NCBI GenBank assembly: GCA_947501265.1
Contig: CANMVY010000001.1
Coordinates: forward strand, 248,001 to 312,000
Direction: 5' to 3'
Length of the DNA stretch: 64,000 nucleotides
Origin: Bacteroidota bacterium
GTDB taxonomy: Bacteria > Bacteroidota > Bacteroidia > UBA7662 > CANHCV01
The position numbers were made by a program, and so were the translations under genes. Below are positions 2,527 to 8,992 of this stretch, piece by piece. The notes beneath the pieces were generated by a model, which saw nothing but the letters and a program-made list of their open reading frames with translations, did not search any database and was not told where the DNA came from. Each line of letters starts with the position of its first letter. Position 1 is the stretch's first letter.

Positions 2527-2534
2527 TATTTTTG
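2527..2534 (+). promoter_or_regulatory. Bacteroidota -7 promoter box TATTTTTG before the CotH-type gene
   Basis: TATTTTTG matches the Bacteroidota primary-sigma consensus TAnnTTTG. It lies 18 bases before the ATG at 2553 in the only sizeable gap on this side of the gene. No clear -33 TTTG was found. Confidence 0.6.
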
Positions 2535-2552
2535 ATTTATTATCAACTCAAA

Positions 2553-4601
2553 ATGAAAAAAATTCTGACATTCCTTTTTGGATTGCTTTTTATTCATCTC
2601 GGTGCTCAAAACTTTTCAGGTAGTGGAGGAGCCATTACCGATAACCAACAGCCATCTTTTTTCCCTCTTACCATTCAAGGAATTGCAAATCGGATTGATT
2701 CTTCGTTCGGAATACAGCAACTTTGCTTCAACATCACCCATGCTCGAGCCAACGATTTGGAAATAAAATTAGAATCCCCAGATGGCTCGATCATCACCTT
2801 AGCATCTCGTTTGGGAAACCCAACTTCTCAAAACTTTTCATCAACGTGCTTTCGTGGAAGCTCTCCCAATAGCATTCGTACCGCAATCGCTCCATTCACA
2901 GGCACATTTCGCCCGTTCGAAATGCTGGGAGCTTTTAATAACGGACAAAATCCGAACGGAACATGGAAACTTTGGGTGACCGATTTGGTTACCGGGGTCA
3001 CTGGTAGCGTATCCAGTTGGACGTTGTCCTTTTCAGGGACGTCACCAGCCATTCCCGAATTACCCTATTCCAACCTTCCGATCATTAAAATCAATACGGG
3101 CGGGCAAACCATTGTAGACGAGCCCAAAAGACGCGTAGCCATGGAATACGTGATGGATTCGGCAGGAGGAAACACCTATCCGTACCGCTCTGCTTCCAAA
3201 TTCAAAGGAACCATTGGTATCGAATTCCGGGGCTCATCTTCCCAAGGATTTCCCAAGAAAAGCTATGGATTTGAAACATGGGATGTAACATTGAACGATT
3301 CCGATGTTGCTTTCCCAGGTTTTCCAGCCGAATCCGACTGGATCCTCAATGCCAACTATACCGATAAGTCGTTGTTGCGAAATGTTTTTACGTACGACAT
3401 GGCCAGAAAGATGGGTTGGTATGCACCAAGAACCCAATTCGTTGAGTTGATCATCGATGACAAATACCAAGGGATTTACATTTTGATGGAGAAAATCAAG
3501 AAAAACAACGACCGGGTCGATATTGCCACCATGAAAGCAACCGACACCTCGGCCATTGAAATCACGGGAGGATACATTTTCAAAATTGATAAAACAACCG
3601 GAAGCGGTTCCGGAAACGGGTGGAATTCTAACTTCCGGTCACCGAGCAGCAATAAAGTCATTTCCTTTCAACCGGAATACCCCGATGCCGATTCCATCAC
3701 CCCGCTTCAGAAACAATACCTCATTCGGTACGTCGATTCTTTTGAACGTGCCTTGGCCGGCCCCAACTTCATGGATTCGGCTTTGGGATGGAGAAAATTC
3801 GCCGACGAGGCATCGTTTATCGATTATTTTCTACTCAATGAATTGGCGAAAAACGTAGATGGCCTCCGAATTTCTACCTATTTACACAAACATAAAATCA
3901 CGAATAAAAAGGGGAAATTGGTCATGGGGCCGGTTTGGGATTACGACATTGCCTACCGAAATGCCGATTATTGCGACGGCGACAATTTAACGGGTTGGGC
4001 CTACAATTTCAATTTGGTTTGTGGCACTGATGGCATGCAAGTTCCGTTTTGGTGGTCGAGATTGGTGCAAGACACCGCATTCACGACCCATTTGCGTTGC
4101 CGATATGATCGCTTAAGATCTGGCTATTGGAGCAACGCATCCCTTAACCGTTGGGTAGATTCGATGGCAACCGTTTTGAGCCCAAGCAAAACCCGTAATT
4201 TCAACAAGTGGCCCATCCTTGGAGTTTATGTGTGGCCCAATCCAAGTCCCATTCCATCCACCTATGCCGGTGAAATTGCCAATTTTAAAAGCAATCTTTC
4301 CTCTCGCTTGAATTGGTTGGATGCCAATATTCCCGGACAATGCTGGGGAATTCCTTTGACCAATGAAGAAGAAAAGGTTGGGCCCGCTCAAATTTATCCC
4401 AATCCTGCCAACAACCAAGTCTTGGTAGTCCTTTCAAAATCCGTAAATCAGTTGGAATGGTTCAACTTGGCCGGTCAAAAAATCATGGCTATTCCTACCC
4501 AAGGAGTTTTGCAATTGTCGGTTTCTACCGCGCAACTGCCGAACGGGATCTATTGGTTGAAAATGGGAAATGAGGTTCGAAAAGTGGTTATTCAACATTA
4601 A
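2553..4601 (+). CDS. Secreted CotH-kinase-fold protein with P-domain and T9SS sorting tail
   Basis: This 682-residue exported protein has three recognisable parts. A signal peptide (KKILTFLFGLLFIHLGAQ) is followed by a proprotein-convertase P-type jelly roll at about residues 25-165, with PNGTWKLWVTDL and GSVSSWTLSFSG. A CotH-like domain spans about residues 180-570, with FRGSSSQGFPKKSYGFE, DWILNANYTDKSLLRN, MEKIKKN and VMGPVWDYDIAY. The C-terminal 75 residues are a T9SS type A sorting domain (IYPNPANNQ, NGIYWLKM). CotH proteins are atypical protein kinases in Bacillus spores; whether this one phosphorylates anything is unknown. I moved the start from the track TTG (2532) to ATG 2553 because the signal peptide begins there. 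It should be exported and anchored or released by T9SS. Confidence 0.9.
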   Translation: MKKILTFLFGLLFIHLGAQNFSGSGGAITDNQQPSFFPLTIQGIANRIDSSFGIQQLCFNITHARANDLEIKLESPDGSIITLASRLGNPTSQNFSSTCFRGSSPNSIRTAIAPFTGTFRPFEMLGAFNNGQNPNGTWKLWVTDLVTGVTGSVSSWTLSFSGTSPAIPELPYSNLPIIKINTGGQTIVDEPKRRVAMEYVMDSAGGNTYPYRSASKFKGTIGIEFRGSSSQGFPKKSYGFETWDVTLNDSDVAFPGFPAESDWILNANYTDKSLLRNVFTYDMARKMGWYAPRTQFVELIIDDKYQGIYILMEKIKKNNDRVDIATMKATDTSAIEITGGYIFKIDKTTGSGSGNGWNSNFRSPSSNKVISFQPEYPDADSITPLQKQYLIRYVDSFERALAGPNFMDSALGWRKFADEASFIDYFLLNELAKNVDGLRISTYLHKHKITNKKGKLVMGPVWDYDIAYRNADYCDGDNLTGWAYNFNLVCGTDGMQVPFWWSRLVQDTAFTTHLRCRYDRLRSGYWSNASLNRWVDSMATVLSPSKTRNFNKWPILGVYVWPNPSPIPSTYAGEIANFKSNLSSRLNWLDANIPGQCWGIPLTNEEEKVGPAQIYPNPANNQVLVVLSKSVNQLEWFNLAGQKIMAIPTQGVLQLSVSTAQLPNGIYWLKMGNEVRKVVIQH

Positions 4602-5278: not shown

Positions 5279-6124
5279 ATGAAATTGTATCCCATTTCTA
5301 CCGGAACCTTCAAGTTAGACGGTGGAGCCATGTTTGGTGTAGTGCCAAAAACGCTCTGGAACCGCCACAACCCTGCCGATGAAAACAATTTGTGCACTTG
5401 GGCCATGCGTTGTTTACTCATTGAAAACGGAAATCGATTGATGTTGGTAGATACCGGATTGGGAAGCAAACAAACCGAGAAATTTTTCAGTTATTACCAG
5501 CCCAACCGCGAGGAAAACCTTGAAAATTCGCTGAAGCAACTCGGGTTCCACCCTTCCGATATTACCGATGTGCTGCTTACCCATTTGCATTTCGACCATT
5601 GCGGAGGAGCCGTTAATCTGGAAAAAGATGGCACCCATTCCATTGCCTTCTCCCAAGCACAATATTGGGTTTCAAAAGGGCAATGGGAAACATCTCACCA
5701 ACCCAACCCCAGAGAAAAAGCTTCCTTTTTAGCCGAAAATTTCGATCCCATCCAAGCCTCAGGCCAACTTAACCTCATTGAAAATGCTTCTTCTTTGAAT
5801 TTTGATGGGGTTGATTTTATCACCGTGAACGGACATACCGAGCAAATGATTCTTCCTTTGGTAGAAATGAACGGACGCAAAGTTGTTTACCTAGCAGATC
5901 TGATGCCGTCCATCGACCACATCAATCCTTCTTGGGTAATGGCTTACGATATTCGTCCGCTCGACACGATGAAAGAGCGCCAATCGCTCATTGATAAAGC
6001 GATTAAAGAAGATTGGATCTTTTTTTTCGAACATGATGCTATAAACGAAGCCGCACTCCTTTCTACCAATGAAAACGGAAAGACCGTTTCTACCGCCACT
6101 ACCCTATCTGAAATATTCGGATGA
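5279..6124 (+). CDS. MBL-fold metallo-hydrolase
   Basis: This 281-residue soluble protein has the metallo-beta-lactamase fold and probably hydrolyses an ester, lactone or phosphoester. The dinuclear zinc motif THLHFDH is at residues 101-107, preceded by the conserved LVDTG at about 57-61. Later ligands fit the NGHTEQMI segment near residue 185 and the VYLADLMPS segment near 205. The true substrate cannot be told from sequence. The ATG lies four bases after a promoter box. The gene ends in an ATGA overlap with cmk, so the two are probably translated from one mRNA. Confidence 0.88.
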   Translation: MKLYPISTGTFKLDGGAMFGVVPKTLWNRHNPADENNLCTWAMRCLLIENGNRLMLVDTGLGSKQTEKFFSYYQPNREENLENSLKQLGFHPSDITDVLLTHLHFDHCGGAVNLEKDGTHSIAFSQAQYWVSKGQWETSHQPNPREKASFLAENFDPIQASGQLNLIENASSLNFDGVDFITVNGHTEQMILPLVEMNGRKVVYLADLMPSIDHINPSWVMAYDIRPLDTMKERQSLIDKAIKEDWIFFFEHDAINEAALLSTNENGKTVSTATTLSEIFG

Positions 6125-6816
6125 AACGGATCATCATTGCCCTCGATGGATTTAGCGCTTGCGGGAAAAGTACCCTTGCCAAAGATTTAGCCAAGAAGTT
6201 GCATTACAGTTATGTAGATTCTGGTGCCATGTACCGTGCTGTTACGCTCTATTTCATCGAAAACGGAATTTCCTTGGAAGACCCGATTGCCATTGAATCG
6301 GCTTTGAAAAACATCCACGTAGAATTTCACCGAAATCCAGAGACCAAAGCCAACGAAACCTGGTTAAATGGAGAAAACGTAGAACAACCCATTCGTAAAA
6401 TGGAAATTTCTAATTTGGTAAGTGAAGTGGCCGCCCTCAAATCAGTGCGACGTGAGATGGTAGCTCTTCAACGGAAAGCGGGAAAAAAACGCGGAATTGT
6501 AATGGATGGCCGAGACATCGGAAGCAACGTTTTTCCCGATGCCGAATTGAAAATTTTTCTCACCGCTCGTCCAGAGATTCGTGCCCAACGCCGTTACGAC
6601 GAATTGGTGGAAAAAGGAACGCCCGAAAGCATGGAAACAGTCGTCGAAAATTTGGCTCATCGCGATCATATCGACTCTACCCGGGAAGAGAATCCGTTGA
6701 TTCAATGCCACGATGCCCGGGTACTCGATAATTCAGATCTTTCCAAAGCCGAACAATTGGAAACCGTATTCCGCTGGGCCACCGAACTCAAAGAAACGAT
6801 TTCTCTCCTACCTTAG
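6121..6816 (+). CDS. cmk: Cytidylate kinase
   Basis: Cmk phosphorylates CMP and dCMP to the diphosphates in pyrimidine nucleotide salvage and synthesis. The P-loop GFSACGKS is at residues 10-17, the substrate-binding segment YVDSGAMYRAVT follows near 31-42, and the MDGRDIGSNVFPDA block is near residue 138. The length of 231 residues is normal for a bacterial Cmk. It overlaps the upstream MBL hydrolase gene by four bases (ATGA). The downstream glycosyltransferase fusion starts ten bases after the stop, so the three genes look like one operon. Confidence 0.97.
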   Translation: MKRIIIALDGFSACGKSTLAKDLAKKLHYSYVDSGAMYRAVTLYFIENGISLEDPIAIESALKNIHVEFHRNPETKANETWLNGENVEQPIRKMEISNLVSEVAALKSVRREMVALQRKAGKKRGIVMDGRDIGSNVFPDAELKIFLTARPEIRAQRRYDELVEKGTPESMETVVENLAHRDHIDSTREENPLIQCHDARVLDNSDLSKAEQLETVFRWATELKETISLLP

Positions 6817-6826
6817 TTTTCCATCC

Positions 6827-8992
6827 GTGAAAACACTCCTCTATTTCTGCCAATATTTTCCCTTTGGTCAACGTGAACCACTAGCCCAAACCGAAATATT
6901 TCAGCTCGCACCCCACTTTGAAAAAATCCTCATCATCCCATTTTTTCGAGAAGAAGGAGAAAGGCCCATTCCCGAAAACGCCGAAGTTCATTGGTTTGAA
7001 AAATCTACCCGATCTTGGAATACACCCAAAACCTGCAACACCCATCAAGCATCCCAAAACATTCTGAAAAGAATTCCAGAAATTGGACCAATTGATCAAT
7101 GGAATCTGGAATTTGCTCGAAAATGGAGAGCAGCTAGAATTCATGCCGAACGGTTGATGTTCGATTTGGACATTTCATCGGAAACCATCCTATATTCCCC
7201 GTGGATGAACCCTTGGGGGCCAACTTTATCCATCGTAAAAGAATACCTGCAGGAATTGAAGGTATTTCCACCGTTGTTTTTCCGTGCAAATGGAGCCGAT
7301 TTGTACCGCGAACGCATGACGGACGTTCAACGGAAATTTCAAGCGGTAACCTTGGAGCTCGCTACCCGAGTTTTCCCGGTTTCCAACCACGGAAGCGAGC
7401 ATTTGAAACATCATTATCCAAGGTATTCTTGGAAAATTGAAACGTCTTACCACGGGAATATCCCGCTGCAATTGTTTTATTCACCCGGAAACGAGAAACG
7501 CTGGCTAACGGTTTCTACCCTGCAACCTGTGAAACGGTTGGAACGAATTTTGGAATTGCTTTCGAAAGTAACCGAACCAACCGTTTGGACGCATCTTGGA
7601 GGTGAAGGAAAAGCGTTGGCAGCGTTGAAAAAACGCTGCGAAGCGTTGCCGCCTCACGTTAGCGTTGATTTTCGAGGACGAATGCGGCAAGGTGAAATTC
7701 TGGATGTTCTTCAAAACGAGCACTTCGATTTATTCCTAAACGTAAGCGATTCGGAAGGACTGCCCCTTTCGGCCGTTGAGGCCGCCCAAGCCGGCATTCC
7801 ACTGCTCCTCAGCGATGTGGGCGGCTCCAAAGAAATTCCGCATGCCCAAGTGCTACCCGTATCTCCATTTCTACCCGAGGTTTGGCTTTCGAAGATTCAC
7901 GAATTGCAAAACCAACCTTTGCAAGATCGTCAATTGATTCAATCGGGTGCGCAACAACGATTTGGATTGAAGAATTACAGCGAGTTTGCTCAAAAAATGC
8001 TCTTCGATGTTCAAGGAACGGTAGTGATCATGGACGATAATTTACCGGGATATTCCATCGCCAAAGCCCTCATCGATGCCGGAGTTGCACCATCAAAAAT
8101 AACGGTTATTCGGAAACGCGTAGGAAGAATGGAACAACTTTCCATTGCCGATTTCGATGCATCGATTGCCCCCAAACCGTGGATTTTATTCCCGCTCAAT
8201 GAAGGCCATTGGGAGGAAGCAAAAAAATGGAAAGAACGTGAACCTGATTCCATTCGATTAACGTTTGACCCAATAACGCGGAACGATTCTTTGCAGAAAC
8301 ACCTACAAAGAGAAAAAGTACAAAGGGCGGGAATTCCCACCGTTCCATTTCAATTGGTTGCCGAATTCAACATGGAACATTTCTCGTTTCCGTTGGTGGT
8401 TAAGCCTTCCAATAAAATGGAGGTAGACCGGAAGGCTGAGCGCTTGGTATTGATTGATTCGTTGAAAGATTGGGAAGAACAACGTCATCAATTCCAACCC
8501 ACTGATTTGGTAGAATCGTGGAAAAAAGGAGCTAAAGTAGCGGCCGTGGTAGGTTTCAGGGGCGAAGGTGCGGTAGAACAATTTTCGGCTTTTCGCCGGC
8601 GGTGCTACCCCGATGATTATACGGTTTTTTCAACGGTAGAAGTTTTGGAAAACGAGGAACTTCTACAATTATCTTCTCAAATTTTGGAACAAATACCGGT
8701 GAAAGGATTGTTAGAAATTGAATTTTTAGAAACGGAGAACGGTTTTGAATTTTTGGAATTGAATAACCGCGCTACCACCTGGATCGAAGCATGGCGATGG
8801 GCGGGCAAAAACGTAATTTTTCAAACCATTTTGTGGTCGCTTGGCAAACCAATCAACGTAACCTCAGAAAAAATGGGCAGCGGATGGTTGGTTCATCGAA
8901 AGCACGAATGGCTCAATTTAAAGCACAAACCCGACCAAGTTCGGTGGTTGGTGAGCCTTTACCTCAAAGGGAAAAAGGCAATGTGGATTTAA
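6827..8992 (+). CDS. Glycosyltransferase (GT4-like) fused to an ATP-grasp domain
   Basis: This 721-residue protein joins two enzymes. Residues 1 to about 395 are a GT-B glycosyltransferase: a Rossmann-type N-terminal half, then VSTLQPVKRLERI, and the GT4 nucleotide-sugar block GLPLSAVEAAQAG near residue 311 with LLLSDVGGSKEI. From about residue 400 the sequence VVIMDDNLPGYSIAKALID begins a separate preATP-grasp/ATP-grasp region. It has FPLVVKPSN (nucleotide-binding lysine, about 524) and the metal-ligand strand FLELNNRATTW (about 644). ATP-grasp enzymes join a carboxylate to a nucleophile through an acyl phosphate, so the protein may glycosylate and ligate one substrate. The track start at 6713 would overlap cmk by 104 bases. 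GTG 6827 gives VKTLLYFCQYFPFG, a typical GT-B first strand, and is preferred. No signal peptide or membrane segment is evident. Confidence 0.85.
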   Translation: MKTLLYFCQYFPFGQREPLAQTEIFQLAPHFEKILIIPFFREEGERPIPENAEVHWFEKSTRSWNTPKTCNTHQASQNILKRIPEIGPIDQWNLEFARKWRAARIHAERLMFDLDISSETILYSPWMNPWGPTLSIVKEYLQELKVFPPLFFRANGADLYRERMTDVQRKFQAVTLELATRVFPVSNHGSEHLKHHYPRYSWKIETSYHGNIPLQLFYSPGNEKRWLTVSTLQPVKRLERILELLSKVTEPTVWTHLGGEGKALAALKKRCEALPPHVSVDFRGRMRQGEILDVLQNEHFDLFLNVSDSEGLPLSAVEAAQAGIPLLLSDVGGSKEIPHAQVLPVSPFLPEVWLSKIHELQNQPLQDRQLIQSGAQQRFGLKNYSEFAQKMLFDVQGTVVIMDDNLPGYSIAKALIDAGVAPSKITVIRKRVGRMEQLSIADFDASIAPKPWILFPLNEGHWEEAKKWKEREPDSIRLTFDPITRNDSLQKHLQREKVQRAGIPTVPFQLVAEFNMEHFSFPLVVKPSNKMEVDRKAERLVLIDSLKDWEEQRHQFQPTDLVESWKKGAKVAAVVGFRGEGAVEQFSAFRRRCYPDDYTVFSTVEVLENEELLQLSSQILEQIPVKGLLEIEFLETENGFEFLELNNRATTWIEAWRWAGKNVIFQTILWSLGKPINVTSEKMGSGWLVHRKHEWLNLKHKPDQVRWLVSLYLKGKKAMWI

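Follow-up and report, generated by a model that had tools for sequence, protein, structure and literature searches.

In Campylobacter jejuni, the capsule enzymes Cj1438 (Q0P8H6) and HS19.11 (Q5M6M2) each combine a GT2 glycosyltransferase with a TupA-like ATP-grasp amidoligase, and both activities have been measured (PMC11800379, PMC13276843). The ligase couples serinol phosphate to glucuronic acid through an amide bond, after which the glycosyltransferase extends the amidated sugar; unamidated glucuronic acid is not accepted by the glycosyltransferase of Cj1438 (PMC11800379, PMC13276843). Here, we analysed a 64,000-nucleotide stretch of a Bacteroidota genome (the window), in which a GT4 glycosyltransferase and an ATP-grasp ligase are joined in a single gene. 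According to the original prediction, this pairing is without a characterised example, which is wrong in kind, as Cj1438 and HS19.11 have both been characterised (PMC11800379, PMC13276843). A characterised fusion of GT4 with a CPSase/ATPgrasp_Ter-like ligase was not found in the literature searched. Because the general pairing of glycosyltransferase and ATP-grasp ligase already has biochemical precedent, the claim made for the window protein is a modest one.

The fused gene and its conservation

The fused gene lies on the forward strand (6827-8992) and reads through 721 codons from GTG to TAA without an internal stop. Its features are listed below, together with the upstream neighbour.

6121-6816, + strand: cmk, cytidylate kinase, upstream neighbour, given for context only (PF02224, E 1.1e-66)
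6827-8992, + strand: fused GT4 glycosyltransferase/ATP-grasp ligase gene, 721 aa, GTG start, TAA stop
6827-8002, + strand: GT-B type GT4 glycosyltransferase half, residues 1 to about 392 (alignments with stand-alone GT4 proteins)
7484-7948, + strand: Glycos_transf_1 (PF00534) donor-binding domain, residues 220-374 (Pfam E 4.8e-16)
7754-7780, + strand: EX7E motif, E310 to E318 (EGLPLSAVE), read from the sequence
8015-8341, + strand: pre-ATP-grasp (Rossmann-like) region, residues about 397-505 (start placed at residue 1 of stand-alone relatives)
8342-8989, + strand: ATP-grasp domain and C-terminal tail, residues 506-721 (family profile and hhalign)
8402-8404, + strand: K526 of FPLVVKPSN, putative ATP-binding lysine (the same in all seven diverse homologues)
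8720-8770, + strand: putative metal-ligand strands, E632 (EIEF) and E644-x-N646-x-R648 (ELNNR) (invariant in seven diverse homologues)

The GTG start is common to the orthologues of all three species that carry the gene, and the N-terminus read from it coincides in alignment with the beginning of stand-alone GT4 relatives. On these two grounds it is a better start than the alternative in-frame ATG upstream at 6713, which lies within cmk. As had been predicted, the gene follows cmk, whose stop (6816) is separated from the GTG by 10 nt. The downstream neighbour is a histidine kinase gene on the opposite strand, overlapping the stop of the fused gene by 4 nt, and the order of cmk, fusion, and the same histidine kinase is kept in both other species (L001 and L002). 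The place behind cmk, conserved as it is in three species, is uninformative on function. Since the gene sits between cmk and the histidine kinase, outside any polysaccharide cluster, its neighbours do not reveal its pathway. Elsewhere in the window, positions 2532-4601 (+) encode a CotH kinase-like secreted protein, which has a proprotein convertase P-domain at its N-terminus and also carries a tail for type IX secretion; this gene lies between ftsZ and riboflavin synthase and is conserved in L001.

Two further species of this genus carry the same fusion, at identical length, gap-free, and with 81 and 79% identity. Across the three orthologues, dN/dS ranges from 0.18 to 0.28 in the GT half and from 0.15 to 0.22 in the ATP-grasp half, with dS of 0.5-1.1, indicating that both halves are kept by purifying selection. 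A join produced by a sequencing frameshift or an assembly error was ruled out, as three genomes carry the fusion at identical length and under purifying selection; no point was found in favour of such an artefact and we regard its probability as negligible. The frame is therefore a single real fusion, as first proposed, and the gene is conserved and functional-looking. When the fusion was sought in other genomes, the two congeners were positive and none was detected outside the genus in the sampled genomes of the order, class, and phylum. Within the order, 3 of 21 genomes carry it, all of this genus, and a profile search with the C-terminal half over 395 sampled genomes of the class recovered it in the same three only. 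Among 396 sampled genomes of the phylum, all GT and ATP-grasp matches outside the genus were in separate frames of approximately 340-460 aa. Two other interpretations were rejected. For a viral or mobile origin, no relative was present in viral contigs or phages and the plasmid matches were single-domain relatives only; for a role in defence or conflict, the GT4-conflict Pfam model scored below its cut-off and PADLOC gave no match.

The two halves abut, with hardly any linker between them, the relatives of the first half ending near residue 392 and those of the second beginning near residue 397. As the halves meet almost directly and have no additional domain in common, losing the stop between two adjacent genes would be enough to create the fusion, and the halves may then serve different steps of one pathway, fused just for joint expression or placing, so that no acceptor is modified twice by this protein. 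A Parabacteroides capsule locus, in which a related GT4 gene is directly followed by a different ATP-grasp gene, is consistent with this. However, the fusion has been kept through substantial synonymous divergence (dS 0.5-1.1), and the domains of Cj1438 and HS19.11 modify the same glucuronic acid one after the other (PMC11800379, PMC13276843), which makes an arrangement of pure convenience unlikely in our assessment.

The glycosyltransferase and ATP-grasp halves

The Glycos_transf_1 match in the N-terminal half reaches 59.2 bits, above the Pfam cut-off of 26.4. Both glutamates of the EX7E motif, which is the motif of retaining GT4 enzymes, are invariant across the three orthologues. Stand-alone GT4 proteins of Bacteroidota (L056, L057) align over residues 2-392 of the window protein and end there, and a Parabacteroides glycosyltransferase aligns over residues 1-337 (E 3e-21), in agreement with the complete GT4-like domain of the original prediction. 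The nearest stand-alone GT4 relatives are 24-32% identical and lie in polysaccharide loci; that of Parabacteroides distasonis (P0002) is located between a flippase gene and an ATP-grasp gene. The ATP-grasp gene beside the Parabacteroides glycosyltransferase was considered as a split orthologue of the C-terminal half and rejected, its best E value being only 0.005. The stand-alone GT4 proteins of Bacteroidota, P0002 among them, are homologous to residues 1-392 but, unlike the fused window protein, are encoded as separate genes of approximately 400-450 aa.

The C-terminal half matches ATPgrasp_Ter (PF15632) directly over residues 605-674 at 22.1 bits, below the Pfam cut-off of 29.1, which is not reached in the three orthologues (22-27 bits). 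NCBIfam returned weak matches to PylC and D-Ala-D-Ala ligase in the same half. We then used a family profile of 17 stand-alone ATP-grasp homologues, from which the window protein and its orthologues were left out. This profile matches residues 450-706 of the window protein with 71.2 bits (E 6.5e-22), and the best of 500 shuffled C-terminal halves scored 8.3 bits against it. Alignment of the C-terminal half with its stand-alone relatives by hhalign gave a probability of 99% (E 2e-18). The 17-member profile also matches carbamoyl-phosphate synthase in the PDB (E 2.8e-21), and CPSase_L_D2 is matched by 13 of its 17 members. Because the C-terminal half is matched by an independent profile that itself matches carbamoyl-phosphate synthase, we assign it to the ATP-grasp domain. 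The original prediction was to fall if this half failed to match ATP-grasp profiles; the outcome is a Pfam score below cut-off together with a strong match to the independent profile.

Residues K526, E632, E644, N646, and R648 are intact and invariant in an alignment of seven homologues, down to approximately 20% identity, and the VVKPSN lysine and ELNNR strand stand where they had been predicted. From established knowledge of the superfamily, we take these residues to correspond to the ATP lysine (K526) and the magnesium ligands of ATP-grasp enzymes, K526, E632, E644, and N646 fitting the pattern of Lys, D/E, and E-x-N. AlphaFold models had low pLDDT values, of 32.5 for the whole protein and 37.1 for the C-terminal half, their input alignments consisting of only three near-identical rows. 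The closest stand-alone relative is encoded on a Methanosarcina plasmid (P0005, 383 aa, blastp E 4e-19), and further relatives of approximately 390 aa occur in many Bacteroidota. These CPSase_L_D2/ATPgrasp_Ter-like proteins are homologous over the whole C-terminal half and share its catalytic residues, but carry no GT fusion in the genomes searched. As the ATP-grasp half is only about 20% identical to the nearest of them, transfer of a substrate by homology is weak. To our knowledge, the group has no characterised member.

Polysaccharide loci and the proposed function

The neighbourhoods of the 17 stand-alone ATP-grasp relatives comprise 130 proteins, including 16 Glycos_transf_1 (GT4) proteins, 7 polysaccharide deacetylases, 5 Polysacc_synt flippases, 5 UDP-GlcNAc 2-epimerases, and 3 initiating sugar transferases (Bac_transf). 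This census places the ATP-grasp family in surface-polysaccharide loci. Separate relatives of both halves are thus found in such loci, which fits the surface-glycan setting suggested originally. The genome of the window itself contains 18 GT4-family matches above cut-off, the fused gene included, five Bac_transf initiating transferases, and two strong UDP-sugar dehydrogenase family matches. The UDP-sugar dehydrogenase genes adjoin putative Wza/Wzc-like export genes and sugar epimerase genes, named by reading of their sequences. Together with the five Bac_transf enzymes, the placing of these dehydrogenases makes uronic acid acceptors plausible.

Several further arrangements of glycan enzymes were observed. 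A 734-aa protein of the same genome (C6:59136-61340; L126:2137-4341) resembles two GT4 glycosyltransferases fused in tandem; its gene, a second glycan-enzyme fusion in this genome, lies beside genes for an ABC transporter and an asparagine-synthase-like protein. In a Parabacteroides plasmid record (L038, NZ_OY725767.1, 5049-12213), genes for a GT4 enzyme, an ATP-grasp protein, a sugar transferase, a second ATP-grasp protein, and an aminotransferase stand in a row, and this capsule-type locus points to sugars decorated with amides at this site as well. One polysaccharide locus (L101:6138-8831) contains, next to each other, two distinct ATP-grasp proteins of the C-terminal-half family. In two distant genomes of the class, an ATP-grasp gene lies beside that of a PLP-dependent decarboxylase (L059:7461-9906 and L060:8401-10848), of the ornithine/DAP type in L060; this arrangement resembles a separate pair for making peptides or amines.

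We consider it somewhat probable that the window protein is a genuine two-enzyme fusion making a surface or lipid-linked glycan, in which sugar transfer and a carboxylate-amine condensation take place successively on one acceptor. The GT4 half would be a retaining transferase that takes its sugar from a nucleotide-sugar donor. The ATP-grasp half, as predicted from its family, would use ATP to convert a carboxylate to an acyl phosphate and then condense it with an amine. In doing so it would most likely amidate a uronic acid of the same growing glycan or link an amino acid to that glycan. By analogy with Cj1438, the two steps may follow each other on one acceptor, which could plausibly gain a sugar as well as an amine or amino acid.

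The product could instead be a small soluble conjugate, such as a thiol, an osmolyte, or an antibiotic-like compound, if the GT4 half glycosylates a small acceptor and the ATP-grasp half adds an amino acid. BshA, which glycosylates malate, is a model for such a reaction. It is the second-best NCBIfam match of the glycosyltransferase half (31.9 bits), and the best match of the ATP-grasp half is the small-molecule ligase PylC (17.5 bits), both far below cut-off; the fused gene also stands alone, with no polysaccharide cluster around it. On the other hand, the nearest full-length glycosyltransferase and the nearest ATP-grasp relatives are in surface-polysaccharide loci, and another GT4 enzyme of BshA length is encoded in the same genome (C1:211396, 377 aa). 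We therefore hold a soluble product to be improbable and prefer the glycan-making reading. A more specific form of the latter, which we offer only tentatively and think rather doubtful, is a lineage-specific GT4/ATP-grasp bifunctional enzyme that is independent of the Campylobacter fusions and makes a glycan amidated with an amino acid or amine, of a kind undescribed in Bacteroidota, this glycan being a constant component of the envelope and not of a variable capsule.

Comparison with the Campylobacter fusions

The window fusion suggests that a large uncharacterised family of ATP-grasp proteins from Bacteroidota polysaccharide loci is linked to glycan modification. Set beside the Campylobacter enzymes, the window protein suggests that sugar transfer and ATP-driven ligation were brought together in one polypeptide at least two times, from different glycosyltransferase and ATP-grasp families, and such repeated coupling hints at a tight ordering of both reactions on surface glycans.

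As in Cj1438 and HS19.11, one protein carries a glycosyltransferase at its N-terminus and an ATP-grasp ligase at its C-terminus, action on a surface glycan having been measured for the Campylobacter pair. The glycosyltransferase of the latter belongs to GT2 and is inverting, whereas that of the window protein belongs to GT4. Cj1438 and HS19.11 contain a middle domain of approximately 130 residues, which the window protein, with almost no linker, lacks. Their ligase is TupA-like and that of the window protein is not: in Pfam searches, neither the GT2 nor the TupA-like (PF14305) families matched the window protein at E values up to 1, PF14305 also being searched against the C-terminal half alone. 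Moreover, the Campylobacter enzymes serve capsule synthesis, whereas the window gene lies outside a capsule cluster. The window fusion, built from other glycosyltransferase and ATP-grasp families, apparently had an origin independent of the Campylobacter GT2/TupA fusions. Judged from these family assignments, the window protein is not a member of the Cj1438-type GT2/TupA fusion family, and its proposed likeness to that family lies in the way of working.
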